Shown here piece by piece: positions 38,524 to 52,859 of a DNA stretch of 64,000 nucleotides. Under the pieces are notes generated by a model, which ran no database searches, was not told the origin of the DNA, and worked only from the letters and a program-made list of their open reading frames with translations. The DNA is from Akkermansiaceae bacterium (GTDB lineage: Bacteria > Verrucomicrobiota > Verrucomicrobiia > Verrucomicrobiales > Akkermansiaceae). The position numbers and the translations under genes were made by a program. The stretch covers positions 62,001-126,000 of the forward strand of contig CANHPN010000002.1 in NCBI GenBank assembly GCA_947462535.1, in the 5' to 3' direction. Position 1 is the first letter of the stretch. The number at the start of each line of letters is the position of its first letter.

Positions 38524-38724
38524 GAAAAAGATCGTTGAGTTGAAAAAACGAACGCCGGGAGCGCGTATGCAGGCGATTGAACGCCACCAACCACCGACTG
38601 GCAATTCGCGAAATGAACCATTTTCCCGCAAAAAGGTATATCCAAGGTAGGCTTCCGCAAGCGCAGCCTCATTCACTGCGCTGAGTTGGCCCTGCCCCCC
38701 CAAATCCACCGCCCGGTAACCACC
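38524..38724. promoter_or_regulatory. Divergent promoter region, regulator / GH95 fucosidase
   Basis: 201 bases between the two divergent starts. No clear operator could be defined by eye. Locally AT-rich text (TTTTCCCGCAAAAAGGTATA) near 38621-38640 is a candidate promoter segment. Binding by the XylR-like regulator is an inference from its position. Confidence 0.4.
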
Positions 38725-41187
38725 ATGCCCAATCACTCTTTCATCCGCTCCGCCGCCGGAGTCAGCCTACTCACCATCATGAACAGCCTCGCCCTTCCCA
38801 TTCCCCTGCCCGTCCCCGAGCGCGGTTTTGTCAGCATCAAGCCCGCCAAAAACTGGGAGGAGGGACTCATCACCGCGAACGGCACCCTCGCCATCAACGC
38901 GCTCAGCCGCCCGCTCGACGAGCGCATCATTTTCAACCACGAGCGCCTGTTCATGCCGATGGGTGCTCCATTCGTGCCGAAGGATCAGTCCGCCCACCTG
39001 CCGGAAATCCGCAAGCTGATCGAGGAAGGGAAATATAAGGAAGCCGAGGTGCTGCAGTTCGAACTCTCCGGCCAGAAGGGCTTCATGTATCCGGACTTTT
39101 ACGTCCCGGCCTTCGATCTAACGATCGACAGCGAGTCCCAAGGCGAGGTGCGCGATTACGCGCGTTCCGTGGATTTTCAAACCGGCGAGGCGGTCGTTCA
39201 CTGGTCCGATGACCGCGGAGCCTTCGAGCGCCGGATGTTCGTTTCCCGCAAGGACGGCGTGGCGGTGATCCAGCTCACCGGCCCGAAACCCGGATCGCTT
39301 TCCTGCAAGCTGAAACTCGATATCCGCGAACCGAGCGATGAGTTCAACGACGACAGCGACATCGCCAAAAAATCCGACGAGATGTTCGAGGAGCACTTCG
39401 GCGACATCAAAAGCGGCGCGGACTCCGGTTCGCTCACCTTCAGCACGCGTTTCCTCAAATCCTATCCACGCAGCATCAAGGCGCTCGAAGGCCGCGCCCG
39501 CGTGGTGACCACCGGCGGCTCCACCGAGCCATCCGCCGACGGCACGCTCGCCATCAAGAATGCCGACATGGCCCTGATTTTCGTGGACATCCGGTTGCTG
39601 ATGGATGCCGGGAAATCCGAACAAGACGCGCTCAAAACGAAACTTGCCGCTGTTTCCACCGACTACGCCGCCCTGTTGAAATCCCACGCCGCCATCCACG
39701 GCGGACTCTTCAACCGCATGAAGCTCGACCTCGGCGGCGGTGCCGACCACCAGAAAACCACCGAGCAGTTGATGGAGGAAAACACCTTTGAAAAAATCAA
39801 CCTCGCGTGGCTGGAGAAACAGTTCGACGCCGGCCGTTATAACATCATCTGCGCCACCGGCGAACTGCCGCCGAACCTCCAAGGCGTGTGGGGCGGCACC
39901 TACGTCCCCGGCTGGGCCAGCGACTACACGCACAACGGCAACGTCCCTTCCGCCATCGCCTCGAACTGCATGGCCAACACGCCGGAGCTGTTGCTGCCAT
40001 ATATCAGTTACATCGAATCCCTCGTTCCCGACATGGAACTCAACGCCAAGCACCTCTTCGGCTGCCGCGGCGTCGTGCTGCCCTCGCGCACCTCCACCCA
40101 CGGTTATAACAACGCACTCGCCGATAGTTTCGCCGGCGGCATGTGGGTGGCCGGAGCACCGTGGGCCGCACATTACTTCTATGACTACTACCTCTACACC
40201 GGCGACGAGAAATTCCTCGCCGAGCGCGCGCTGCCTTACATGGAAAAGGTCGCGTTGTTCTTCGAGGACTTCGTCTATGAAGGACCGGACGGGAAATACA
40301 TCCTCTCGCCCGCCCAGTCGCCCGAGAACTGGCCCGCCGGGTCCGACTCGCAGGCGACCTTCAACGCCACCATGGACGTGGCCGCCGCCAAGGAGTTGTT
40401 AGCAAACACCATCACCGCCTCGCGCAAGCTCGGCAGGAACGCCGACAAGATCCCCGTCTGGGAGAAAATGCTTTCCAAGATGCCGGACTACGCCATCGCG
40501 GAAAACGGCATCATCAAGGAATGGCTCACGCCCAAGCTCGGCAACAACGACGCCCACCGCCACTCGTCCCAGCTCTATCCGCTCTACGACGGCCTTCCCG
40601 ACGAGATCGCCAGCAGCCCGCAACTCCGCAGCGCGTTCATCAAGAGCGTCGAGGACAAACTCGAACGCTACTGGAAGGACAACAAGCGCGGCTTCATGTC
40701 GTTCGGCATCGTTCAACTTGGCCAGGTCTCCGCCAGCCTCGGCCACGGCGAGATCGTCCACCACTGTCTCAAGCATCTGGTCAACGGTTTCTGGCTCAAC
40801 AACCTTGCCTCCATGCACAACCGCCGCTCGCTGTTCAACATGGACATTAGTGGCGGCCAGCCGTCCATCATCATCAAGGCGCTCGCCGATTCCTTCCCCG
40901 GAAAAGTCCGCCTGCTACCCGCGCTGCCGAAAGCCTGGGGCAAAGGCACCATCGAAGGCGTCCTCTGCCGCGGCGGGATCACCATCAACCGCCTGCACTG
41001 GGATGATGGCAAGGTGGAAGTCGAAATGACTACCGACAAAGCCCAGGAAATCACCCTCGTGCTCCCAAGCGTGATCGGCACGATCAAGGCCGAAGGCGCC
41101 ACCGTCGCCGATGGCGCAAACTACAGCGAACGCAAACTCACCCTGCCCGTCGGGAAGAAAGTCTCGCTCTCGATCCAGTTGAAGTGA
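38725..41187 (+). CDS. GH95-type alpha-L-fucosidase, exported
   Basis: 820 residues from ATG 38725. A signal peptide (about 1-26) is followed by the GH95 N-terminal beta-domain (NWEEGLITANGTLAINALSR, RIIFNHERLFMP) and the (alpha/alpha)6 domain. Typical text is STHGYNNALADSFAGGMW, FLAERALPYMEKVALFFEDF, SPAQSPENWPAG, TFNATMDVAAAKELL, IIKEWLTP and AHRHSSQLYPLYDG, with the SPEN Glu as probable general acid. The Asn pair that normally activates water sits in a divergent context (YTHNGNVPSAIA), so catalytic efficiency cannot be assumed. The enzyme would release terminal alpha-1,2-fucose from glycans. Confidence 0.88.
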   Translation: MPNHSFIRSAAGVSLLTIMNSLALPIPLPVPERGFVSIKPAKNWEEGLITANGTLAINALSRPLDERIIFNHERLFMPMGAPFVPKDQSAHLPEIRKLIEEGKYKEAEVLQFELSGQKGFMYPDFYVPAFDLTIDSESQGEVRDYARSVDFQTGEAVVHWSDDRGAFERRMFVSRKDGVAVIQLTGPKPGSLSCKLKLDIREPSDEFNDDSDIAKKSDEMFEEHFGDIKSGADSGSLTFSTRFLKSYPRSIKALEGRARVVTTGGSTEPSADGTLAIKNADMALIFVDIRLLMDAGKSEQDALKTKLAAVSTDYAALLKSHAAIHGGLFNRMKLDLGGGADHQKTTEQLMEENTFEKINLAWLEKQFDAGRYNIICATGELPPNLQGVWGGTYVPGWASDYTHNGNVPSAIASNCMANTPELLLPYISYIESLVPDMELNAKHLFGCRGVVLPSRTSTHGYNNALADSFAGGMWVAGAPWAAHYFYDYYLYTGDEKFLAERALPYMEKVALFFEDFVYEGPDGKYILSPAQSPENWPAGSDSQATFNATMDVAAAKELLANTITASRKLGRNADKIPVWEKMLSKMPDYAIAENGIIKEWLTPKLGNNDAHRHSSQLYPLYDGLPDEIASSPQLRSAFIKSVEDKLERYWKDNKRGFMSFGIVQLGQVSASLGHGEIVHHCLKHLVNGFWLNNLASMHNRRSLFNMDISGGQPSIIIKALADSFPGKVRLLPALPKAWGKGTIEGVLCRGGITINRLHWDDGKVEVEMTTDKAQEITLVLPSVIGTIKAEGATVADGANYSERKLTLPVGKKVSLSIQLK

Positions 41188-41189
41188 AG

Positions 41190-41487
41190 TCCATGCGCGG
41201 TCTTTTTCACCTTCGAGGCGCACTTCGCGGGTTTCCTGCGGGTGAAGCGGATAGAGTAATGCGCCAAGCTCGAGGGATTTGCTAGAAACTGTGTGGATGC
41301 CGAAGCTGGTCGCCTGATCGCGCGGCACCTTGAGGTCGATGATCGGGTTGGCCTGACGGTTCCACCAATCATTCACGCAGAGCGAGTCCCCGCCTTTGAG
41401 AAACGCCACCCGCACCGGAAATTCTGTTTGTTCCGCATGAGCCAGTGGAGCACTCGCAAGAGCAATCAGCCCACCAGGTGGGAGCGC
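41190..41487 (-). pseudogene. N-terminal remnant of a secreted protein
   Basis: On the minus strand the text GGLIALASAPLAHAEQTEFP (a signal-peptide end) runs into VRVAFLKGGDSLCVNDWWNR, NPIIDLKVPRDQ, SFGIHTVSSKSLELGALLYP and REVRLEGEKDRAW, and then enters the GH95 3' end and is lost. A start codon for the signal peptide is not preserved. This N-terminal beta-domain resembles the one preceding PhoD-like phosphatases or phosphoesterases of Verrucomicrobia; identification is weak. It is a truncated gene that now fills the GH95-sulfatase gap. Confidence 0.5.
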
Positions 41488-41521
41488 ATGATTGGTTTCG
41501 TGAAAAGCAGAATAACGGGTG

Positions 41522-42874
41522 TTATTTCGCGGCCGCCTTCAGTTCGTTGAAGCGCTCTCGCATCTCGGCGAGGCGCGCGGCGTGCTGCGGATCGCCGACC
41601 AGGTCGTTTTCCTCGAAGGGATCGGCTTCCACGTGGAAGAGTTGCTCCAGCTTGAAGTTCGGCCAGTAGAAATACTTCCAGTCCTTGCGCACCAGAGCCT
41701 CGGAGGCGGGAATCCTTTCCACGCTGCCGACGGAGGCGTGCTCGTAAAAGAACGCGTCGCGCCAGACAGGTTTTTTCGCTGCTAGATAGAGCGGCGCGAT
41801 GTCGCGGCCCTGCATCGTGGCGGGCGCCTCGATGCCGGTGGCGGCGAGGATGCTCGGCGCGAGATCGACGTTGAGCGTGAAGTCGTCATTGGTGCCGCCG
41901 CGTTTGGACGGCTCCATGCGCGGGTCGCGCACGATGAGCGGCACCCGGATGCTTTCCTGGTGCGGATACCATTTGTCGGCGAGGCCGTGCTCGCCGTGGA
42001 AATAACCGTTGTCGCCGACGAAGATGACGAGCGTGTTGTCGAGCACGCCCTGCTTTTCCAACTCCTCGAGGAGGCGGCCGCAGGTGGCGTCCACCTCGGC
42101 GGCGAGGCGGTAGTAGTTTTTCATCATCTCCTGGTATTTCTCCGGCGTGTCGAAGCGCCAGCGCCAGCGGACGCGGCCCTCGTTTTTCTCGTTGGCGATG
42201 AAGGGCGGCAGCTTGCGGTAGGATTCCTCCGTCGCGGTTTTGGGCAGCGGGATGGCCACGTCCTGATAGAGCGCCATGCTTTCCGGTTGTGGCAGGTACT
42301 GCTTGGGATTGCTGTCCTCGGCGTGGGTGGCGATGAAGGCCAGCGTGAGACAGAACGGCTTGTCCGCGGGCCGCTGCTTGAGGAAATCCAGCGCGTCGTT
42401 CTCGTTCTTCTTGGTGACGTGGATCTGCGTGCCGTCGGGCTCCGTGATCCAGTGCTTGCCGGAATACGACCGGCCGAAGTCGAAGTTCTCTGCCGGAAAC
42501 TTGCCGTTGTGCCACTTGCCGACGTGGCCGACGAAATAATTGTTGGCCCGCAGCAGGCCCGGATAGGTCTCTGCCCACGGGGTTTTAAAAGCCACGAAGC
42601 CCTTGTTTCCGTGTCGCGACATCCATTGTCCGGTGAACAGGCTCGCCCGGCTCACGCCACAGATCGAGGTGGTGACGCAATTTTGGGTGAAGCGGAAACC
42701 GTCGCCCGCGAGGCGGTCGAGGTTGGGCGTTTTCACCGCCGGATTGCCCGCGCAGCCCAGCGTGTCGAAGCGCCAGTCGTCGGCGTAGAGGACCAGGACG
42801 TTGAGAGGTTTCACCGCGCTGGCGGCATGGCCAAAACTCGTTAGGGCAAGGAGGAAGGTGAGGAGTTTTTTCAT
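41522..42874 (-). CDS. Secreted sulfatase, formylglycine motif variant
   Basis: 450 residues, signal peptide 1-19. Metal-binding Asp32/Asp33 in [20 protein letters not shown] and the formylglycine region [15 protein letters not shown]: Cys72-x-Val-x-Arg76. The usual motif is C-x-P/A-x-R, so the third position is Val. Further active-site text is [18 protein letters not shown] and WHNGKFPAE. It removes sulfate esters, here most likely from a sulfated fucose or rhamnose glycan. It lies between the GH95 and GH78 genes; the gap to the GH78 gene is 21 bases on the same strand. Confidence 0.88.
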
Positions 42875-42895
42875 GAATCGCGGGATGGCCTGGGA

Positions 42896-45700
42896 TTATC
42901 GTCCCTTGCTCACCACGAAACGGTAGCGACCGCCGCCAACTTTCACTCGAACCAATGAAGGTCCGGGCGGCAGGGCGGTGACGCCGACGGCCTCGGCGAG
43001 CGGGTGGCCGGATTCGGTGACCACGTCACCCGCAGCGGCGGGCAGCTCGATGGTGGCGGTGGCGTCCTGCGGAATGACGATTTGAAACTCGCTGCCGGTG
43101 GCGGTGACCGACCAGTTCGATTCGACCGGCCCACGGATCGTGCGGTGCGAGGATTTCACCCATTCCAGTCCCTTGGGGATCTGCGGGCGGATGAGGATGC
43201 GGTCGAAGCCGACCGCGTCGTCGGCCGCCTGGATGCCGCCGAGATGGCGGAAGAACCACGCCGAGATCGAGCCGAACATCGGGTGGTTGTGGGAGAAGGT
43301 GTTGTCGCTTTCCTTCCAGGTTTCCCACAAGGTGGTGGCGTCGTTTTCGAGCATCCAGCCCCATGAGGGGAAGGTCTTGCGGACCGCCAGCGCGTAGGCG
43401 AGGTCGTGGCGGCCTCGCTGCGAGAGCTGCTCTAGCAGGAACCGCGTGCCGTAGATGCCGGTGGTGAGGCTGGGGCCGTCCGCAGGCGCGGTGAGTGTGG
43501 CGACGAGGTTTTCAAACGCGGCCTTGCGGTCGGCTTCCGGCACGGCACCGAAACCGAGCGCGAGCAATTGTTCGGATTGTGATCCGTCGCCGATTTTTCC
43601 GGTTTGGGCGTCGAGAAATGTCTTCGCCCATGCGGCGGCGGATTCGTCCGCCATTTTCTCGAAACGCACGGCGTCCTTCTCGCCGCCGATGACGCGCGAG
43701 AGGCGCGCCATGCGGCGGGCGGTGTCGATGAACATCGGCGTGGTGACCACGGGGCCGGCGATCTTCGGCAGCGCCTCGTGATCGCCGAGGCCAGACACGA
43801 CGAGTCCGCCCTTCTCACGCTTGGACGCTTCCAGGTCAAACCAACGGACCGCGGCGGGGAGTTGTTCCTCGATCAGCGATTTGTTTCCGTAGTGCTGATA
43901 GAGCTGCTCCAGCAGAAGCGGATGCGCCATCGCCCAGCCGACGCCGCAATACTGCACTCCGACGAAGGGCGCGGTGTCGGTGAAATTGCCATCCGGGCGG
44001 GCCGCATCGGAAAAGTCACGCACGGTCTTTGCGTAGAACCCGGACATGTCGAAATTCATCAGGAAGGCCTCGCTGGTGACGGCGATATCGCCGCCGTAGC
44101 CGAAGCGCTCGCGGTGCGGGCAGTCGGATTGCACGCTCACGACGTTGTTGCGGAAGGTGTTGCGGGTGATTTTCTGGATGCGGTTCAGGAGCTCGTTCGA
44201 GCAGGAGAAGGTTCCGGCGTCGGGCAGCTCGGAATGCAGCCGGATGCCGCAGATGTCCTCCAGCTTCGGAGTTTCTGGCAAACCGGTGATTTCCATGTAG
44301 CGGAACGCATGGAAGGTGAAATCCGGGCGGTAGGTTTCCCCCTCGCCGCCGCGAGCGATGTAAATGTCCTGCTGCCAGGCGATTTCCGGCGCGCCGGGCC
44401 CGCCGATCGGGTGCTCCTCGCCCTTGTCGTTTTTGCGTTTGCCTTTGATCTGGCCGCACACGCTGGTCATCGGATTGAGCGTGCCATCGGGATACAAGAT
44501 CTCGCCGTAGCGCAGTACGACGCGCGTGCCTGCGGGGGCGTTCAGCTTGATTTCCGGCAGGCCGGTGAAGTTCGTGCCGAAATCCACGATGAACACGCCT
44601 TTGGCAGGCGAGGTGACGGCCACGGCCGGAATCGTTTCGGTGGCGCGCACCGGCGGCATCGCCAGTAGCGGCTTGAGCGGCTCTAACGAAGAATTGGTGA
44701 CGCGCGCCGGCTTCCATGCGGAGGCGTTAAAGCCGGGCTTGTCCCAGCCGGGAATTTCCAAGCGGGCATCGCGTTCCTCCCCGAGGAAGACGCTGTTTCT
44801 AACGGTTGGTCCGCCGGTGGTGCTCCAGCCGGGGCCGGTGGTGACGATGGTGCGGGTGCCGTCCGGGTGCTCTGCGACGAGCAGCGCGATGGCGCGCGGG
44901 CGGCCGGTGGGCACGGTATCGCGGATGTTGCGGCCACCCCACATGCGGAGTGGCAGCGGGTTATACCAACCGTTGCCAAGAGTCAGGCCGAGGCAGTTCG
45001 CTCCTGACGCGAGTTCTCCGGTCACGTCGTGGGTGCGGAACAGGATTCGTTTGTCAAAGGCGGTCCACGGCGGATCGAGCACCTGGTCTTTCAGCGGTTT
45101 GCCGTTGAGGCTGGGCAAGGCGTATCCGAGCCCCGCGAGATGCAGGCGCGCGCGGACGACCGGCTTGGAAAGCGTGAATTCATGCCGCAACAACGGCGCG
45201 GGGTCGGGCTGGTAGAAGTCCTCGTCGCGGGTCGGAAGCGGTTTGCCGTCATCGATCCAGCGCGCGCCCTGCCAGTCGGCGGGGGACTGTGGCACGATTT
45301 CAAGAACGGCGGGATCGCTCCACGCGGACGGTTCGTCGCCCGCGCCCCAACTGCGGACTTTCCAATGATAGTTTCCACCAGGGGCGAGGGGAGTGCCGTT
45401 ATATGCGACAGAAGGCCCGCGTCCGGCGGCCGTCTTGCCCGAGTCCCAGAGGTCGCCGCGATCCTTGGCGAGAAGATCCGCGCTGCTAGAGACGAGGATC
45501 TGCCAGGCCGACTGCGCCTGACCGCGATCCGAGGCTTCGACGCGCCATGACAGGCGCGGAGCGGAGGATGCCGCGAGAGGCTCGTGCAAGCCCTCGCAGC
45601 GGAGGTCCCGTGGAGCCAAAGGGGCGGCATGTGCCAGTGTGGCGGCGGCGAGGGTGAGAAGCAGCGTGCCGATGGATCCGGCTGGTCGGTGTGTGTTCAT
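42896..45700 (-). CDS. GH78 alpha-L-rhamnosidase, exported
   Basis: 934 residues from ATG 45700; the frame open to 46135 has no family sequence upstream. A signal peptide (GTLLLTLAAATLAHAAP) precedes the N-terminal fibronectin-like domain (APRDLRCEGLHEPLAASSAP) and the carbohydrate-binding modules (LRHEFTLSKPVVRARLHLAG). The catalytic (alpha/alpha)6 domain holds QSDCPHRERFGYGGDIAVTS, the region with the catalytic acids of GH78, and WETWKESDNTFSHNHPMFGS. It removes terminal alpha-L-rhamnose. It is the first gene of a pair with the sulfatase. Confidence 0.92.
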   Translation of the reverse strand: MNTHRPAGSIGTLLLTLAAATLAHAAPLAPRDLRCEGLHEPLAASSAPRLSWRVEASDRGQAQSAWQILVSSSADLLAKDRGDLWDSGKTAAGRGPSVAYNGTPLAPGGNYHWKVRSWGAGDEPSAWSDPAVLEIVPQSPADWQGARWIDDGKPLPTRDEDFYQPDPAPLLRHEFTLSKPVVRARLHLAGLGYALPSLNGKPLKDQVLDPPWTAFDKRILFRTHDVTGELASGANCLGLTLGNGWYNPLPLRMWGGRNIRDTVPTGRPRAIALLVAEHPDGTRTIVTTGPGWSTTGGPTVRNSVFLGEERDARLEIPGWDKPGFNASAWKPARVTNSSLEPLKPLLAMPPVRATETIPAVAVTSPAKGVFIVDFGTNFTGLPEIKLNAPAGTRVVLRYGEILYPDGTLNPMTSVCGQIKGKRKNDKGEEHPIGGPGAPEIAWQQDIYIARGGEGETYRPDFTFHAFRYMEITGLPETPKLEDICGIRLHSELPDAGTFSCSNELLNRIQKITRNTFRNNVVSVQSDCPHRERFGYGGDIAVTSEAFLMNFDMSGFYAKTVRDFSDAARPDGNFTDTAPFVGVQYCGVGWAMAHPLLLEQLYQHYGNKSLIEEQLPAAVRWFDLEASKREKGGLVVSGLGDHEALPKIAGPVVTTPMFIDTARRMARLSRVIGGEKDAVRFEKMADESAAAWAKTFLDAQTGKIGDGSQSEQLLALGFGAVPEADRKAAFENLVATLTAPADGPSLTTGIYGTRFLLEQLSQRGRHDLAYALAVRKTFPSWGWMLENDATTLWETWKESDNTFSHNHPMFGSISAWFFRHLGGIQAADDAVGFDRILIRPQIPKGLEWVKSSHRTIRGPVESNWSVTATGSEFQIVIPQDATATIELPAAAGDVVTESGHPLAEAVGVTALPPGPSLVRVKVGGGRYRFVVSKGR

Positions 45701-45889
45701 GTCGGGGTTGGTGCGGAGTGGGTGCATCTCAGTCGGGCGGAAAGTGATCAGGCTATTCAAATGGCGGCGCGTCTGTCTAAGCCGATTTGCGATAATCCAC
45801 GAAATTTCCACGTCAAGGCCGCCCGATTCCCGATCCCGCTTGGAATCGGCTCGTGATCGGTCAAGCTGGGTTCCAGAAACTTCACGACC

Positions 45890-46828
45890 ATGAGAGTGAT
45901 CACCGCCGACCAAGTTCACGCCGCGCTGCGTTTTCCGGATTTCATCGACGCCCTGCACGAATCGTTCGCAGGCCGGCACACCATGCCGCCGCGGCAGGTG
46001 ATGTTGCTGGACGAGGGCTCGGGCAGCCATGATGCCTTCGCGATGCTGCCATCCTGGAATGACGAGGTGATCGCGCTGAAGGCGTTCACGTATTTCCCGG
46101 AAAACCAGCCGCCGCACCGCACCTTGTATTCGCAAATTCTGGTGTTTGACCGTAGCTGCGGCGAGCCGCTGGCGCTGGTCGACGGCGTCAGCGTGACGTG
46201 CTGGCGGACGGCGGGAGTCTCGGCGCTGGCCTCGCGATTTCTTTCCCGAACGGACTCGGAGACGCTTCTTTTGTTAGGCACGGGGAAGCTGGCACCGTTC
46301 CTCATCCGCGCCCATGCGAGTATCCGGCCGCTGAGGAAAGTCCTCGTCTGGGGCCGCTCGCCGGACAAGGCCGGGGCTCTGGCAGAATCGATGGCGGCGG
46401 AAATGCCGGGGTTGGATTTCGAGGTGGTGACGGACCTCCCCGCCGCCTGCGGGCTGGCCGACGTCGTGGTCTGCGCCACCGGCAGCGCCGAAATCCTGGT
46501 GCGCGGGGAATGGATCAAACGCGGCACCCACACGGATTTCATCGGCAACCACCACGCCACCAAGCGCGAGTGCGACACCGCCATGGTGACGCAATCCCGG
46601 GTCTTCGTGGATACGCGTGCCAATTGTTTCAAGGAAGCGGGCGAGATCCTCGTGCCGGTGGCCGAGGGGGTGTTCTCGACGGATCAAGTGGCGGGGGAGT
46701 TGGCCGAACTCTGCCGGGGAAGCGTGCCCGCGCGGCGGAACCCGCAGGAAATCACGCTCTTCAAATCCGTCGGCTGTGCGCTCGGCGACCTGTGCGGGGC
46801 GGTGAGCACTTGGCGCGCTTCGCGGTAA
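45890..46828 (+). CDS. Ornithine cyclodeaminase/mu-crystallin family protein
   Basis: 312 residues. Family text: VITADQVHAALRFPDFIDAL, AMLPSWNDEVIALKAFTYFP, LALVDGVSVTCWRTAGVSAL, the nucleotide-binding LGTGKLAPFLIRAHASI and ATGSAEILVRGEWIKRGTHT. Members are NAD(P)-dependent enzymes (ornithine cyclodeaminase, alanine dehydrogenase, imine reductases), and the exact reaction is not visible here. It is divergent from GH78 with 189 bases between. Confidence 0.85.
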   Translation: MRVITADQVHAALRFPDFIDALHESFAGRHTMPPRQVMLLDEGSGSHDAFAMLPSWNDEVIALKAFTYFPENQPPHRTLYSQILVFDRSCGEPLALVDGVSVTCWRTAGVSALASRFLSRTDSETLLLLGTGKLAPFLIRAHASIRPLRKVLVWGRSPDKAGALAESMAAEMPGLDFEVVTDLPAACGLADVVVCATGSAEILVRGEWIKRGTHTDFIGNHHATKRECDTAMVTQSRVFVDTRANCFKEAGEILVPVAEGVFSTDQVAGELAELCRGSVPARRNPQEITLFKSVGCALGDLCGAVSTWRASR

Positions 46829-46840
46829 GTTCCTCCCGCT

Positions 46841-46972
46841 CCCGTCCCTCTCTATCATCTCAGCGAGGATCCGAACGATAAGCGCGACGTGGCCGACCTG
46901 CATCCGGAGATCGTCTCCCGCCTGAAGGACCGGACCGAGGGTTGGCGGCGCGGTTTATCCGCTGCCAAGTGA
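46841..46972 (+). pseudogene. C-terminal sulfatase remnant (1)
   Basis: The 43-residue tail reads VPLYHLSEDPNDKRDVADLH and PEIVSRLKDRTEGWRRG before a TGA stop. This is the typical C-terminal tail of secreted sulfatases (LYxLxxDPxExxNVA). No upstream sulfatase sequence remains and it lies directly after the ornithine cyclodeaminase-like gene. It ends nine bases before the end of the convergent methyltransferase gene. Confidence 0.75.
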
Positions 46973-46980
46973 GGCCGCCC

Positions 46981-47697
46981 TCACTTTTTCCTGAAGACGA
47001 TCATGTGCTGTCTCGGCAGGGTGCCGATGGTCTCGACGTAGGCGAGTTGCGGGTGCGCAGTCATTTCCTTTTTCACCTGCACCTCGCTCATCTTGTGGAC
47101 TTCCTTGATCGGCACTGCGGGGTCTTCCTTGCGATATTCCACGAAAACCATCCGGCCGCCCGTCTTCAACCCGCTGAGCATGTTGCGGATCATTTCAAAG
47201 GGGAAATCGAACTCATGATAGACATCGACCATGATCATGGTGTCACACGAGCCGGGCGGCAGTTTTGGGTCGGTGTTGGTGCCGAGCACCGGCCTGACCG
47301 TTTCGATTTTGAAGTGCGCCATGCGTTTCATTAGCAGATCGAGCATTTCCTGCTGGATCTCGACGCCGTGGATCACGCCGGTTTTGCCGATCTTGCGGGC
47401 GATCTTCCGACTGATGAATCCGGAGCCGCAGCCGATGTCGGCGACCGCCTCGCCTTCGCGCAGCTCGAGTGCTTCTACCAGCAGGTCGGTGCGCTCCTCG
47501 TCCTCGCGCTGCGGCCGCTCCAGCCAGTCCGCCGCCTGATGGCCCATGACATGGGCGATTTCACGGCCCATGAAAAACTTGCCGATGCCATGGCCGTCAT
47601 GTTCGGTCCGGGTTTCATAAAGCGGTATCGGCTCTTCCGCCCGGGCGGCGGCGATGGGCGCGGCTAAAAGCAGGAGGAGCCAGAGGCGGGGTTTCAT
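46981..47697 (-). CDS. Exported SAM-dependent methyltransferase-like protein
   Basis: 238 residues. The N-terminus is a signal peptide (MKPRLWLLLLLAAPIAAARA) with an AxA cleavage site, so the protein should act in the periplasm or be membrane-bound. The SAM-binding motif GEAVADIGCGSGFISRKIAR (about 81-100), VIHGVEIQQEML and SCDTMIMVDVYHEFDFPFEM are those of a class I methyltransferase. An exported SAM enzyme is unexpected because SAM is cytoplasmic; similar signal-bearing methyltransferases occur in other Gram-negatives with unknown substrate. Its ATG overlaps the stop of a sulfatase remnant (ATGA). Confidence 0.8.
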   Translation of the reverse strand: MKPRLWLLLLLAAPIAAARAEEPIPLYETRTEHDGHGIGKFFMGREIAHVMGHQAADWLERPQREDEERTDLLVEALELREGEAVADIGCGSGFISRKIARKIGKTGVIHGVEIQQEMLDLLMKRMAHFKIETVRPVLGTNTDPKLPPGSCDTMIMVDVYHEFDFPFEMIRNMLSGLKTGGRMVFVEYRKEDPAVPIKEVHKMSEVQVKKEMTAHPQLAYVETIGTLPRQHMIVFRKK

Positions 47698-47870
47698 GGA
47701 ACTTTGCGGTTAGGGGTGTCGACGGTGCCGACGGGGTGCTTGTGGGCGAGGATTTCGGCGTTGCGCTTTTCAGCTTCGTCCTCGAGCCGGGCGACGACGT
47801 CCGGATGAGCGCTGGCGACGCCGGTGGTTTCTCCGGGATCGGTCTTAAGTTTGTAAAGGGTGCCTTGGGC
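47694..47870 (-). pseudogene. C-terminal sulfatase remnant (2)
   Basis: The text GTLYKLKTDPGETTGVASAH and PDVVARLEDEAEKRNAEILA is a sulfatase C-terminal tail ending with KVP. It is cut off at about 47870 and no catalytic part remains. Its stop codon overlaps the methyltransferase start (ATGA), so the original gene was translationally coupled to the methyltransferase. Confidence 0.7.
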
Positions 47871-47966
47871 GACGGTTGCGACCATTCACCCTTTACCGGC
47901 GGCAGCCTCGGATTCTTTCTTTCCGGCAGGGCGAAATCCCCGAAAGCGGCAGTAAAACCAGCCCTG

Positions 47967-48266
47967 ATGATTAGAAACCGTTTTATCTGCTGCATTTCGT
48001 TGGCACTGACGGCGGGAGTCGCTGCGGAACCCCTCGGTTTCAACCGCGACGTCCGGCCTATCCTGTCCAAGACCTGCTACGCCTGCCACGGACCAGACGC
48101 CGCCCACGGCCGCAAGGCCGGGCTGCGACTCGACGTGCGCGAGGACGCTCTCCAAGGCGGCGAGTCGGGGGAAACCGGCCATCATCCCCGCCGCCCCACC
48201 TGCCGAACAAGCCGCCTGGACCCAGCTCGCCTCCATACTCTTCAATCTATCCGAGACGATCACTAG
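47967..48266 (+). pseudogene. Truncated PSCyt1-type (planctomycete cytochrome c) gene
   Basis: ATG 47967 opens a signal peptide (NRFICCISLALTAGVAAEP) followed by FNRDVRPILSKTCYACHGPD and RKAGLRLDVREDALQGGE, which is the start of a PSCyt1 heme-binding domain with CxxCH (CYACH). In complete proteins PSCyt1 precedes DUF1549 and DUF1553 over about 900 residues. Here the family text stops after about residue 70 and the frame ends at 48266. It is a remnant. Confidence 0.75.
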
Positions 48267-48272
48267 AAGATA

Positions 48273-48350
48273 AACCGCAAGCCGCAAAGGTCGCAAAGGG
48301 ACGCAAAGCCACCCGCGATCCAAATTCAAAATCTAAAATTCCAAAAAAGG
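48273..48350. repeat. Low-complexity repeat-like stretch
   Basis: GCAAAGG-type units recur (CCGCAAAGGTCGCAAAGGG, ACGCAAAG) and are followed by ATTCAAAATCTAAAATTCCA, a different A-rich motif. It is non-coding and lies ahead of the oxidoreductase gene. It resembles simple tandem-like sequences often found between genes in this phylum. Confidence 0.4.
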
Positions 48351-48390
48351 ATGGATTGGCGAACCGCGCGGCGTAACACTTGAACAAGCC

Positions 48391-49752
48391 ATGAAGCACT
48401 ATCATTCCATTCAGATCTCCCGCCGTTCGTTCATGCGTCGCACGATGGCGACCGCCGCCGCGACCGGCTTGCCCCTCTGGTTCGTCGAGCGGCAACTGGC
48501 GCACGCTGAGGAAACCGCCGCCCCCGTGAAACCCCTTTCGCCTAACGACCGTCCGGGTTACGCGCTCATCGGCTGCGGCGGCATGGGATCCGGGGACGCG
48601 GGGAATGCCAGGCGTTTCGGCGATCTTCTGGCCGTCTGCGATGTGGACCGCTCGCATGTGGACCGTGCCGTCGGGAGACTCACCCCGGAGGGCAAAAAGC
48701 TCGACACCTATTCGGATTTCCGCAAGCTGCTAGAGCGTGACGACATCCACGCGATCATCAACGGCACGCCGGACCACTGGCACAGCCTGGTCAACATCGC
48801 GGCCGCCAAGGCCGGCAAGGACATCTATTCGGAAAAACCGCTGACGCTCACCATCGACGAAGGCAAGCACGTGGTCCGCGCCGTGCGCCAGCACAAGGTG
48901 GTCCTGCAGACCGGCACCCAGCAGCGCAGCAGCCAGCGCTTCCGCATGGCCTGTGAACTGGTCCGCAACGGCCGGATCGGCAAACTCAAGGAGGTTTCAG
49001 TTTGGCTGCCCGCCGGCCTTCGCGGCGGCCCGTTCGGCCCGCAACCGGTGCCCGCCGGGTTGGACTGGGATTTCTGGCAGGGCCAGGCCGCGGCTGCGGA
49101 ATACCGGCCGGAACGCTGCCACGTCAGCTTCCGCAACTGGTATGATTACTCGGGAGGCACCATGACTGACTGGGGCGCGCACCACATGGACATCGGCTAC
49201 TGGGCTGTCGGCCTGCCCGCCCCAACGCAAATCGAAAGCAAAGCGCTCACCGAGCCGATCCCGGGCGGCTACACTGCGATCAGCGATTACGAGGTGAAAT
49301 TCACCTATCCCAACGGCGTGATCTTCAACGTGCGGACCACCCCGGACGACAGCCCATTCGGCGTGGTGATCAAGGCGGACGGCCAGCGCAACGGCATTCG
49401 CTTCGAGGGCAGTGACGGCTGGATCTGGGTGAACCGCGATGAAATCAAGGCCAACGACCGCGAACTGCTAGCCAAGCCGCTCGCCGACGACGCCGAGCGC
49501 CTCTACTTCAGCAACGACCACATGGGCAATTTCTTCGAATGCATGCGGACCCGCAAGGACCCGGTCTGCGATGTCGAGGTCGGCCACCGCTCGGCCACGG
49601 TCTGTCACCTGGGCGCGATCTCGTTGCGGACCAAGCGCAGCCTGACATGGGATCCGGAAAAGGAATTCTTCACCGGCGAGCACGCGGACGAAGCCAACCG
49701 CCACGTCGCGCGCGAGATGCGCAAGCCCTACGACTACGATTTCGTAGCCTGA
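48391..49752 (+). CDS. Gfo/Idh/MocA family oxidoreductase with Tat signal
   Basis: 453 residues. The N-terminus carries a twin-arginine motif (SRRSFMRRTMATAAATGLPL), so it is exported in folded form with its nucleotide. The Rossmann motif GYALIGCGGMGSGDAGNARR, the typical EKPLTLTIDEGKHVVRAV and the C-terminal domain with DWGAHHMDIGYW (active-site His residues) are present. Family members act on sugar derivatives with bound NAD(P). The role here, possibly with the carbohydrate genes upstream, is inferred. An AT-rich stretch precedes the ATG. Confidence 0.9.
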   Translation: MKHYHSIQISRRSFMRRTMATAAATGLPLWFVERQLAHAEETAAPVKPLSPNDRPGYALIGCGGMGSGDAGNARRFGDLLAVCDVDRSHVDRAVGRLTPEGKKLDTYSDFRKLLERDDIHAIINGTPDHWHSLVNIAAAKAGKDIYSEKPLTLTIDEGKHVVRAVRQHKVVLQTGTQQRSSQRFRMACELVRNGRIGKLKEVSVWLPAGLRGGPFGPQPVPAGLDWDFWQGQAAAAEYRPERCHVSFRNWYDYSGGTMTDWGAHHMDIGYWAVGLPAPTQIESKALTEPIPGGYTAISDYEVKFTYPNGVIFNVRTTPDDSPFGVVIKADGQRNGIRFEGSDGWIWVNRDEIKANDRELLAKPLADDAERLYFSNDHMGNFFECMRTRKDPVCDVEVGHRSATVCHLGAISLRTKRSLTWDPEKEFFTGEHADEANRHVAREMRKPYDYDFVA

Positions 49753-49783
49753 TTTCGTTGGGGCGAAAACTGAATCCATCACC

Positions 49784-51364
49784 ATGATTGTAAGTATATT
49801 CAACGATGTGATAGGCCCCGTGATGCGCGGGCCGTCGAGTTCTCATTGCGCCGCGGCGTTGCGGATCGGCAGGCTGGCGCTTGACCTGATGGATGGGAAT
49901 TTCAAGCAGGTGCTGGTGGAGTTCGACCGCAACGGCTCTCTGCCCAACACGCACGACACCCAAGGCTCGGACATGGGGCTTTTCGGCGGCCTGATGGGCT
50001 GGGACGCGGCCGATCCGCGGCTGCCCGGCTCGCCCCGGGCCTTGCGGGATTCCGGCGTCAGCATCGCCATCGAGACCGTGGATGCCGGCGATCCACATCC
50101 TAACACTTATCGTTTGACGCTGTGCTCAGCCAACGGGACCCACACCATCCATGCCATTTCCACCGGCGGCGGGATGATGGAAGTCATCGAGCTCGATGGC
50201 TTCGGGGTTTCGATGTTCGGCGATTGTTTCGAGACGCTGTTATGGGTTCGTGGGGATGCGGGAAACGTGGTCGCGGCATTGAAAGCCACCATCGGGGAAG
50301 GGGAGGTTCTGCTGCATCAGGCCGATGGCAGGCAGTTGGTCGAGGTCAAGGCCCCGAAATTTGTCAGTAACGGCGTCATCGCCGGCTTGGACGGCATTGA
50401 ATCCGTCAAGCGGCTGGCCCCCGTGCTGCCGGTCTTGTCCCGCACGGACACTCGGGTGCCCTTCGGAACTTGTGCGGAGATGCTTGAGCACGACGCGGGA
50501 CGCGGCACTCCCTTGTGGCGGCTTGCCGTGCAATATGAAATGGCGCGCGGCGGCTTGAGCGAGGCGGAAGTGATCGCGAAAATGCTGGAGATCGTCCGCA
50601 TCCTGAGGAAGTCCATCGCCGAGGGCATCGCGGGAACTCAATACGATGACCGCGTGCTGGGCCACCAGTGCGGCCGTTTCGACGAAATGATGCGAAGCGG
50701 AAGTCTGCTAGATGGGGGCGCGCTGAACCGGATCATTCTTTACGTCACCTCGCTGATGGAGGTGAAGAGCTCGATGGGCGTGATCGTCGCAGCCCCGACG
50801 GCTGGTGCCTGCGCGGCTCTACCCGGCGCGGTGATCGCGATGGCGGAGAGCATGAATCTCGATGAGGAGGCGATGGCCAAGGCCCTGCTCGCCAGCGGCC
50901 TGATCGGCGTATTCATCGCCACGCGCTGGACTTTCGCAGCGGAAGTCGGCGGTTGTCAGGCCGAGGGCGGCTCCGCAGCCAGCATGGCAGGGGCCGCCCT
51001 GGTCACCCTTGCCGGTGGAACCCTCGCGCAATCGGTCGCTGCCGCTTCCATGGCCATGCAAAGCATGATCGGCCTGATCTGCGATCCGATCGCCAACCGG
51101 GTGGAGGCACCCTGCCTCGGCAAGAACGTGATGGCCGCCGCCAACGCCTTGTCCTGCGCGAACATGGCGCTCGCCGGTTACGATCCTGTGATTCCGTTGG
51201 ACGAAGTCATTGAGACCGCGAAACAGGTGGCTAAGCAGATGCCGCGCGAAGTGCGCTGCACCAATCTCGGCGGGCTTTCGATCACTCCCACCGCCATCGC
51301 GTTGGAAGCAAAACTCGCCGCGAAGCGCACCACCAGTTGCGGGAGCGGTTGCGGGTGTGGCTGA
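49784..51364 (+). CDS. L-serine ammonia-lyase, iron-sulfur type, fused beta and alpha domains
   Basis: 526 residues. The N-terminal domain (1 to about 160) starts with SIFNDVIGPVMRGPSSSHCA, which is the serine dehydratase beta domain signature; the C-terminal part (about 200-515) is the alpha domain with SSMGVIVAAPTAGACAALPG, EVGGCQAEGGSAASMAGAAL and PIANRVEAPCLGKNV, which holds Cys for the iron-sulfur cluster. It deaminates serine to pyruvate. An unusual Cys/Gly-rich tail ends the chain (TSCGSGCGCG, three Cys in ten residues). It begins 31 bases after the oxidoreductase gene. Confidence 0.92.
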   Translation: MIVSIFNDVIGPVMRGPSSSHCAAALRIGRLALDLMDGNFKQVLVEFDRNGSLPNTHDTQGSDMGLFGGLMGWDAADPRLPGSPRALRDSGVSIAIETVDAGDPHPNTYRLTLCSANGTHTIHAISTGGGMMEVIELDGFGVSMFGDCFETLLWVRGDAGNVVAALKATIGEGEVLLHQADGRQLVEVKAPKFVSNGVIAGLDGIESVKRLAPVLPVLSRTDTRVPFGTCAEMLEHDAGRGTPLWRLAVQYEMARGGLSEAEVIAKMLEIVRILRKSIAEGIAGTQYDDRVLGHQCGRFDEMMRSGSLLDGGALNRIILYVTSLMEVKSSMGVIVAAPTAGACAALPGAVIAMAESMNLDEEAMAKALLASGLIGVFIATRWTFAAEVGGCQAEGGSAASMAGAALVTLAGGTLAQSVAAASMAMQSMIGLICDPIANRVEAPCLGKNVMAAANALSCANMALAGYDPVIPLDEVIETAKQVAKQMPREVRCTNLGGLSITPTAIALEAKLAAKRTTSCGSGCGCG

Positions 51365-51428
51365 TGAAGCCTCAATTTATCTTATAATCCGCAGTTGGTA
51401 GAAAATCCCAGAATGCCCACGGCTCATC

Positions 51429-51620
51429 GAGCAGAACCCGACCACCTGCTCGCTCAACGCGCTCTCGCTGCTTGCCAGCGGCAAGCGGGATCGTCTCCCG
51501 CTGGTCAGAAAAGAGGCCGAATGGGCGTCCGGTTATTCCACCAGCGCGATGCAAACCTGGTATTACGCCTACATCATCATGCTACTCTCCGAATACAAGA
51601 TCGCGACCGGCGACGCGTCT
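51429..51620 (+). pseudogene. Remnant of a DUF6288-type gene
   Basis: The plus-strand frame reads EQNPTTCSLNALSLLASGKR, RLPLVRKEAEWASGYSTSAM and TWYYAYIIMLLSEYKIATGD and then runs into the 3' end of the convergent DUF1080 gene. This resembles the end of the toroid-type repeat domain of DUF6288 proteins. No start or N-terminal part is present. Confidence 0.55.
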
Positions 51621-52775
51621 CTTCAGTGCCTCCCACTCGGCTTCGGTGGCGGGTCCCAGTTGGTTTTCCATCAGGATCTTCCAGCCGTCCTGCCTTTTCA
51701 CCAGCAGGGCTTCGAGGTGGATATAATCCTTATTGATCAATCCGCCGGGCGTCTGCGAAGTGTAGCAGAAAATGCCGGTTTCGTGCGCGGTCGTGGCGTC
51801 GCCGCAGCGTCTTGAAAACCGGAACTCCACGCTGGCCTTGACCTTGCCGGCGCGGGTATCGGTGAAGTCCTGCTGCCACCGCGCCAGGGCTTTGCTTAGC
51901 GGCTGGCTGGTCTGCTTGCTGCCACTAACAAGCACGCCCTCGGCGTGGCAGGTCGCGGTGTAGGCTTCGAAATCCCCTTCGTTCACCGCGCGGGAAACCA
52001 CGGCCCAGTAAGCGTCGAGCTCCGCGCGGCGGGCCTCGGCACCCGCATCGATGGGAGTGACGCGGAAAGCGCGGATGGCGATCGGCCCGTGGTCGCCTTG
52101 GATGGCGATGGGGCCCTTGCTCGTCTCGCCCTCCAGCGGGGACGAGCGGGTGGGTCCGGTGGTCGTGGCGTTTTCCTGCACCAGTACCCCGTTCACGAGA
52201 ACCTTCGCGAAGGTGGCGTCCGTTAGTTTTTTCCCGGTGTCATCGAAGCGCGGCGCGCGGAACGTGATGTCGAGCGTCTGCCACTCGCCGGGAGCCTTGG
52301 CGGCGTTGGCCTTCGGCGCGGTGCCTTCAAAGCCCTGCTTTCCCTTTGGCCCAGACGGGTCATAGCGTTCATAAATCCCGCCGAGGTCGTCGCAAGCCGC
52401 CTTGGTTTTGCCGAAGCTGTCGAGGATCTGCACCTCGTAGCGGCCCATCAGATAGACGCCCGAGTTCGAGCCCCTGGGGACCATGAACTCAAGCTCGACG
52501 CGGACATCGCCATACTCGTCCTTGGTGATCAGATAGGGAATCCGTGTGTCTTTACTCGCTCCATTGACCACGATCCGGCCCTCGCCGCCGACTTGAAACT
52601 CGCTCTTGTCGGGCACGGCGGCGACCTCCCCCGCCCCGCGCCAATGTTCGACCGGGCGGAACGCGTCGAGAGCGCCGTCGCGCGGCAGGTCCTGCGCGTG
52701 CGCAAGCGCCGGGAAAATAGTTAGGACTGCGGTCGCGGCCACCAGCGGGAGGCGGATCAAGGTGTGGGATTTCAT
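51582..52775 (-). CDS. DUF1080 protein with C-terminal NTF2-like domain
   Basis: 397 residues from ATG 52775. After a signal peptide (IRLPLVAATAVLTIFPALAH) the DUF1080 (3-keto-disaccharide hydrolase-like) domain covers about residues 25-255, with LEFMVPRGSNSGVYLMGRYE and GEWQTLDITFRAPRFDDTGK. The remaining about 120 residues contain YWAVVSRAVNEGDFEAYTAT and SKALARWQQDFTDTRAGKVK, typical of an NTF2/SnoaL-like cone domain. Fusion of the two is uncommon. The DUF1080 family is lectin- or hydrolase-like in carbohydrate metabolism; no catalytic claim is made. The 3' end covers the DUF6288 remnant. Confidence 0.82.
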   Translation of the reverse strand: MKSHTLIRLPLVAATAVLTIFPALAHAQDLPRDGALDAFRPVEHWRGAGEVAAVPDKSEFQVGGEGRIVVNGASKDTRIPYLITKDEYGDVRVELEFMVPRGSNSGVYLMGRYEVQILDSFGKTKAACDDLGGIYERYDPSGPKGKQGFEGTAPKANAAKAPGEWQTLDITFRAPRFDDTGKKLTDATFAKVLVNGVLVQENATTTGPTRSSPLEGETSKGPIAIQGDHGPIAIRAFRVTPIDAGAEARRAELDAYWAVVSRAVNEGDFEAYTATCHAEGVLVSGSKQTSQPLSKALARWQQDFTDTRAGKVKASVEFRFSRRCGDATTAHETGIFCYTSQTPGGLINKDYIHLEALLVKRQDGWKILMENQLGPATEAEWEALKRRVAGRDLVFGE

Positions 52776-52859
52776 GATGTCGGGCGTGGACTGGCCTTTC
52801 GCGTTTCTTCGGCATTTGCTCCCGGCGGTATGCGCCACCTTTGGGGAGGACTTGCCGCT

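Follow-up and report, generated by a model that had tools for sequence, protein, structure and literature searches.

An apparently exported SAM-dependent methyltransferase family and its recent association with sulfatases in one lineage

Background

In bacteria, SAM-dependent reactions are generally regarded as confined to the cytoplasm. METTL7A and METTL7B (TMT1A/B), class I methyltransferases of a size similar to the protein considered here and likewise provided with an N-terminal hydrophobic segment, are eukaryotic membrane-anchored thiol methyltransferases that face the cytosol; the likeness is one of description alone. The same holds for the methyltransferases secreted by Mycobacterium tuberculosis, which reportedly work within the host cell, where SAM is present. 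Reviews mention these secreted enzymes, which are also bacterial methyltransferases that leave the cell and are described as acting on host chromatin. Nothing on a bacterial exported SAM methyltransferase of the present kind was found in the open-access literature, which is weak evidence of absence, and PMC6515984 and PMC7603352, in the portions consulted, are not about such an enzyme.

Among the solved structures listed the closest match is 3DH0, a SAM-dependent methyltransferase from Aquifex aeolicus, which has its fold in common with the methyltransferase described here (MT) across 190 residues and is also the best sequence-profile match to it (E 1.4e-27). The two proteins differ, however, in that they share 17% identity and the profile match starts at residue 11 of the 219 in 3DH0, which leaves little space for a signal peptide; the title of the entry assigns no substrate. 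The Methyltransf_31 and Methyltransf_25 families are generic class I domains and are uninformative with regard to substrate or export. The second relevant group comprises the PF00884 sulfatases, from which two gene remnants beside the MT descend. Intact copies in a sister genome match PF00884, whereas those described here are without the catalytic domain, and a C-terminal MT domain on a sulfatase is found here only in the sister.

The window (the whole stretch of 64,000 nucleotides that was analysed) derives from an Akkermansiaceae genome and was compared principally with locus L003 of a same-genus genome (G001:C76, contig CAMDLP010000076.1), hereafter the sister, whose MT is 89% identical to that of the window. 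The durable finding appears, from sequence, to be an uncharacterised and apparently exported family of SAM methyltransferases that has been recruited twice into fusions with signal-bearing glycan enzymes; its coupling to a sulfatase is a recent event in one lineage. Taken as a whole, we consider it probable that the MT is an extracytoplasmic class I SAM-dependent methyltransferase with the history of deletion and fusion proposed below. The features concerned are as follows.

41522..42874, minus strand: intact sulfatase of the same locus, sister counterpart at L003 9665-11011
45890..46828, plus strand: intact gene of the ornithine cyclodeaminase / mu-crystallin (OCD) family, syntenic in the sister (92% at the amino acid level)
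46829..46972, plus strand: tail B, what is left of the C-terminus of a convergent sulfatase; in comparison with the sister about 1.25 kb is absent, the gene start included
46981..47697, minus strand: MT, apparently an exported class I SAM-dependent methyltransferase of 238 amino acids, with a Sec signal peptide predicted for approximately the first 20 residues
47694..47885, minus strand: tail A, C-terminal remnant of the upstream sulfatase, a 63-codon ORF; about 1.16 kb absent relative to the sister
47868..47875: junction of the sulfatase A deletion, where about 8 bases align to both sister flanks
about 47968..48148, plus strand: N-terminal remnant of a PSCyt1/PSCyt2/PSD1 gene, intact in the sister (L003 2274-4604)

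Results and discussion

Deletion scars around the methyltransferase gene

A preliminary description of the window had placed the MT between two sulfatase C-terminal tails, at essentially the positions listed above, and homology to the sister confirms both. Tail B, which lies convergently beyond the MT, is homologous to the intact convergent sulfatase B of the sister (L003 6693-8066) from approximately position 46836-46838 to its stop codon (86% at the amino acid level over 44 residues, E 1e-22). Tail A matches the sister's sulfatase A from about position 47875 downwards (84% over 50 residues, E 2e-25), and its TGA overlaps the ATG of the MT to give ATGA, as had been described. Pfam matches to the tails are weak (Sulfatase_C in tail A at E 0.0076, under the cut-off; no match in tail B), and neither of these C-terminal frames, which comprise 47 and 63 residues, matches the PF00884 catalytic domain. 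Since the tails are too short to be placed securely by Pfam, their identification rests on the sister genome; on this homology they are remnants of sulfatases, with little room for chance.

In comparison with the sister, the window is missing approximately 1254 nt between the stop codon of the OCD gene and tail B, and approximately 1161 nt that begin at the sulfatase A start codon and end close to the C-terminus of that protein. Still present are the sequence formerly upstream of sulfatase A and an N-terminal part of the adjacent PSCyt1/PSCyt2/PSD1 gene (planctomycete-type cytochrome c); the latter, as a third component of this scar, was absent from the preliminary description. The dN/dS values of the tails (0.43 over 47 codons for tail A, 0.29 over 39 codons for tail B) derive from few changes and are not in themselves evidence of relaxed selection. 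PF00884 has 22 matches in the window genome, 21 of them over the cut-off and some representing two pieces of one gene. The best match to sulfatase A is 53% identical (24 of 29 first-look candidates scored), and sulfatase B has no match at E <= 1e-100 among the 22 of 34 first-look candidates that were scored. Loss of the two sulfatases is thus likelier than relocation, because no close copy of either was found among these candidates from the window genome. The surroundings (window positions 38686-52838) provide a glycan-degradation setting, with genes for GH95, a sulfatase, an alpha-L-rhamnosidase, a GFO/IDH/MocA oxidoreductase and a 3-keto-disaccharide hydrolase.

Fusions of the methyltransferase to other enzymes

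The gene order in L003 is DUF1501, PSCyt1/PSCyt2/PSD1, sulfatase A-MT fusion, convergent sulfatase B, OCD-family gene and third sulfatase. Sulfatase A is intact in this locus and is joined in frame to the MT; this is the intact sulfatase followed by the same methyltransferase that the preliminary description had proposed seeking in relatives, found in the form of a fusion. The sister is without 68 nt that are present in the window and that comprise the end of sulfatase A, its stop codon and the greater part of the MT signal peptide. As the frames of sulfatase A and the MT overlap by ATGA, a loss of 68 nt (3n+2) joins them, giving a single open frame of 659 amino acids from L003 4705 (a start picked by eye) with matches to Sulfatase (E 9e-53) and Methyltransf_31 (E 9e-13). 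The signal of the MT itself is gone from this protein and the signal-like sequence at the N-terminus of the sulfatase is kept. The fusion would be the derived state, because in each of the three nearest other relatives (L004, L005 and L006) the MT is a separate protein that bears a signal of its own. The orthologue in L006 (5983-6708) is that of Chthoniobacter flavus Ellin428. It had been claimed that the sulfatase-methyltransferase coupling must have been functional before the decay: the arrangement is indeed intact in the sister, with one sulfatase fused, and the fusion protein is open and constrained, but that the coupling was functional we can only infer.

A second fusion is found in another genome of the genus (G069; L123 7974-9476, G069:C85), in which a signal-like N-terminus is followed by a PF06439 3-keto-disaccharide hydrolase domain and then by an MT 60% identical to that of the window, in a protein of 501 amino acids. 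Each fusion is represented by one assembly. The tree pairs the MT of the sister with that of the window (100/96) and not with that of G069, which forms a long row under an open fork near the window's group.

We suggest that in the ancestor of both species the MT would have been the last gene of a sulfatase-MT pair overlapping by ATGA, convergent with the second sulfatase and part of a locus for glycan degradation. The bodies of both sulfatases would then have been lost from the window species through two deletions, leaving the MT with its own signal peptide, a leader ORF of 63 codons and the upstream region of the former operon, under continued purifying selection. In the sister, the 68-nt deletion would have joined sulfatase A to the MT, whose domain would then exit the cytoplasm on the sulfatase signal. 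The mature domain may bind SAM outside the cytoplasm and methylate a small molecule or glycan product there. The two loci would thus provide a clear case of one ancestral arrangement with two sister outcomes, deletion and fusion.

A probable C-terminal remnant of an alpha-L-rhamnosidase occurs at L003 9451-9651 (53% over 70 residues, E 2e-15), and the same gene is intact in the window (ORF 42896-46135, minus strand); each sister seems to have lost a different portion of this glycan locus. The sister genome also encodes a second, partial MT fragment (L120 6792-7010, G001:C20; 77% over 73 residues), which lies immediately 5' of a further PSCyt1/PSD1-DUF1501 pair. L003 is labelled Akkermansia muciniphila and L004 (G083) Prosthecobacter debontii, yet they belong to one genus and at least one of these public labels is wrong.

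Conservation and fold of the methyltransferase

The window MT matches Methyltransf_31 at E 3.5e-13, with Methyltransf_31 and Methyltransf_25 both above their gathering scores, and is present in a single copy in the window genome at E <= 0.001, save for one 29% partial match. SAM motif I (DxGxGxG) is conserved across the family, D87, G89 and G93 being present in 84 of 84 aligned sequences and G91 in 83, and an acidic residue (D/E113) follows strand 2 in all 84. Many polar residues beyond this motif are invariant in alignment A1, which holds 59 of the 84 sequences, namely D158, Y160, H161, E162, E187, E191, H201, Q207, E211, Q230 and H231. AlphaFold2 models of the MT reached a pLDDT of 93.4 with a 47-row alignment and 94.7 with the 59-row alignment. 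The nearest solved structure to the MT model among the matches listed is 3DH0 (Z 26.2, 1.8 Å over the 190 residues; next Z 19.8), and the 59-row model gave a Z of 26.6 for 3DH0 versus 19.9 for the next structure. The modelled fold is that of a Rossmann-like class I methyltransferase, which does not give the substrate. Both motif and modelled fold place the window protein among the class I SAM-dependent methyltransferases, and methyl transfer is predicted.

In the comparison of window and sister, the mature part of the MT has a dN/dS of 0.188 (220 codons); two intact neighbours, the OCD gene and the third sulfatase, give 0.198 and 0.190. The MT thus did not share in the decay of its neighbours, its dN/dS being close to that of intact ones.

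No SAM supply is known outside the bacterial cytoplasm, and the structural matches include SpnF and RdmB, which, partly on the strength of their entry titles, we take to be proteins of the methyltransferase fold that do not methylate. The MT could accordingly be an exported protein of another kind, whose class I fold binds a ligand, SAM or otherwise, in the service of sensing, scavenging or chemistry other than methylation. We regard this as quite unlikely in view of the many invariant polar residues beside the SAM motif, as would be expected of an active site.

More specific assignments were also considered. Arsenite methyltransferase (ArsM) has conserved arsenic-binding cysteines; no column of the family alignment contains more than 15 cysteines in 84 sequences, and the ArsM NCBIfam models score far under their cut-offs. 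The equivalogs UbiE/MenG, PCMT, CbiT and UbiG were likewise rejected, as the best 25 of 62 NCBIfam models (E <= 0.1) were all under their curated cut-offs.

Export signals across the family

The N-terminus of the window MT reads MKPRLWLLLLLAAPIAAARA, followed by EE after a cleavage site placed by eye. Its parts, MKPR-LWLLLLLAAPIA-AARA, correspond by eye to the charged n-region, the h-region and the small residues that precede cleavage in a Sec signal. An N-terminal hydrophobic segment over the hydropathy threshold is present in 83 of 86 members, the three exceptions being the sister fusion, a fragment at a contig edge (L045) and L059, which scores 1.96 against the threshold of 2.0; four plasmid-borne members also have such a segment. 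Signal peptides were called by hydropathy and by eye, and by eye these segments resemble signal peptides, signal anchors or lipobox sequences. None of the controls from three families taken as cytosolic exceeded the threshold (0/8, 0/7 and 0/4), whereas ETF-QO did so in 4 of 8 sequences, probably through an N-terminal beta strand. The exported SAM enzyme of the preliminary description is thus well supported at the level of sequence, both by the family-wide N-terminal signals and by the two fusions that place the domain behind signal-bearing enzymes.

It is highly unlikely that the hydrophobic N-terminus is a mere membrane anchor with the catalytic domain facing the cytoplasm. Such an arrangement would suit a second, same-genus subgroup of MTs (e.g. 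L089 and L096-L102), in which the hydrophobic N-terminus is longer, has no obvious cleavage site and is often followed, by eye, by a proline-rich linker; these proteins are possibly membrane-anchored. Apart from L022, L034 and L047, every scored row has Lys or Arg ahead of the hydrophobic segment, and under the positive-inside rule such N-terminal charge favours an outside location. A lipobox-like motif in two members (L060 and L173) and the position of the domain in the two fusions also argue against a cytoplasmic orientation.

An extracytoplasmic location of the MT would have wider consequences. It is possible, although we propose it only tentatively, that several phyla carry SAM-dependent methylation outside the cytoplasm, which would imply an extracytoplasmic supply of SAM, and that the enzyme has been fused at least twice to exported glycan-degrading enzymes as bifunctional proteins. 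A conserved and apparently exported family with an intact SAM site, which has outlasted both the decay of its neighbours and the loss of its own signal, makes extracytoplasmic methylation directly testable, and the two fusions offer concrete proteins in which the partner domain limits where the enzyme works.

Gene neighbourhoods and the sulfatase link

The preliminary description had suggested a methylation coupled to sulfated glycans. A sulfatase occurs within 2.5 kb of the MT in 2 of 77 loci, and is adjacent only in the sister; in the other locus (L039) an unrelated sulfatase lies 1.3 kb away. The 77 loci are those with an MT ORF; they count the contig of L004 and L124 twice, include three plasmids with an identical MT, and in 58 cases extend for at least 2.5 kb on both sides. 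The count used 14 chosen reference sulfatases together with an HMM, replacing an initial set that contained non-sulfatase ORFs and gave false hits through an ABC transporter, as in L008. BLAST with the initial set found no sulfatase in the short flanks (<=1.5 kb a side) of L088-L110, of which G018 (L088) was covered again in the recount. This neighbourhood count rules out a general sulfatase coupling of the family. The preliminary description had itself taken intact orthologues without a sulfatase neighbour as evidence against its reading, and nearly all relatives are of this kind.

The locus nevertheless also contains GH95, alpha-L-rhamnosidase and another sulfatase, and the MT has sulfatase A as its fusion partner in the sister and a 3-keto-disaccharide hydrolase in G069. 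These features would be consistent with a working sulfatase partner that methylates sulfated or freshly desulfated glycan fragments outside the cytoplasm and has kept this activity after sulfatase loss, a proposal that we consider unlikely given the rarity of neighbouring sulfatases and the fact that the MT is constrained though both sulfatases have been lost. Moreover, orthologues of sulfatase A with 80-81% identity are found in three same-genus genomes, and in one of these, G002 (L205), the orthologue is one of four sulfatases in an array that has no MT of this family; approximately 4.5 kb downstream is a distinct methyltransferase-like ORF, 21% identical to the window MT. A 65% identical orthologue in G064 (L206) has, by eye, no MT beside it. 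Since the family usually has no sulfatase neighbour, a sulfated glycan is not its general substrate. Most likely, the MT works outside the cytoplasm in a sulfatase-independent role, and its entry into a sulfatase operon was a recent event in a single lineage.

The 84 loci compared, many of which have short flanks, show no gene neighbour common to the whole family, and the substrate cannot therefore be inferred from context. The largest neighbour family is present in 8 of 84 loci, gammaproteobacterial by label, its member in L055 being a family III CoA-transferase. The second occurs in 7 of 84, with PrmA (ribosomal protein L11 methyltransferase) as its member in L006. In L006, L008, L009, L014, L015, L028 and L063 a gene of this second family lies 3' of the MT in the same orientation, at a distance of 4 to 686 nt.

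Distribution and phylogeny

A pattern-based scan of 84,980 species genomes yielded 62 MT loci, with labels that include Verrucomicrobia, Planctomycetes, Armatimonadetes and Gammaproteobacteria, among others. The distribution of the family is patchy: of the 73 genomes of the genus, 34 contain a member at E <= 1e-40, a close orthologue (E <= 1e-70) is present in 6 of the 73, the window's included, and in a sample of the phylum at least 20 of 288 genomes have an MT at E <= 1e-40, a lower bound obtained with at most 10 candidates scored per genome. In the tree, the window MT groups with Chthoniobacter-labelled sequences and with L003, L004 (G083) and L088 (G018) of its own genus. A separate cluster of twelve rows, which is fully supported, contains eleven further sequences from the genus; this split makes transfer or an old duplication likely. 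One member (L104 859-2241, G034) has a C-terminal extension of about 210 residues, for which no Pfam match was found at E <= 0.001.

Five plasmid records also match the MT, those from Comamonas, Delftia, an uncultured host and Geminocystis at 50-52% and that from Methylosinus at 29%. As a clue to substrate the plasmid context was set aside, because the neighbours differ and only a metallophosphoesterase is near the MT in the third IncP record. An identical MT protein with an export signal is encoded on three IncP conjugative plasmids (L209 9890-10618, L210 8890-9618 and L212 8890-9618). It lies in L210 and L212 between an upstream cluster of solute ABC transporter and phosphodiesterase or phosphatase genes and an IS1071 transposase gene. 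In L209 its neighbours are a metallophosphoesterase gene on one side and a Tn3-family transposase gene on the other.
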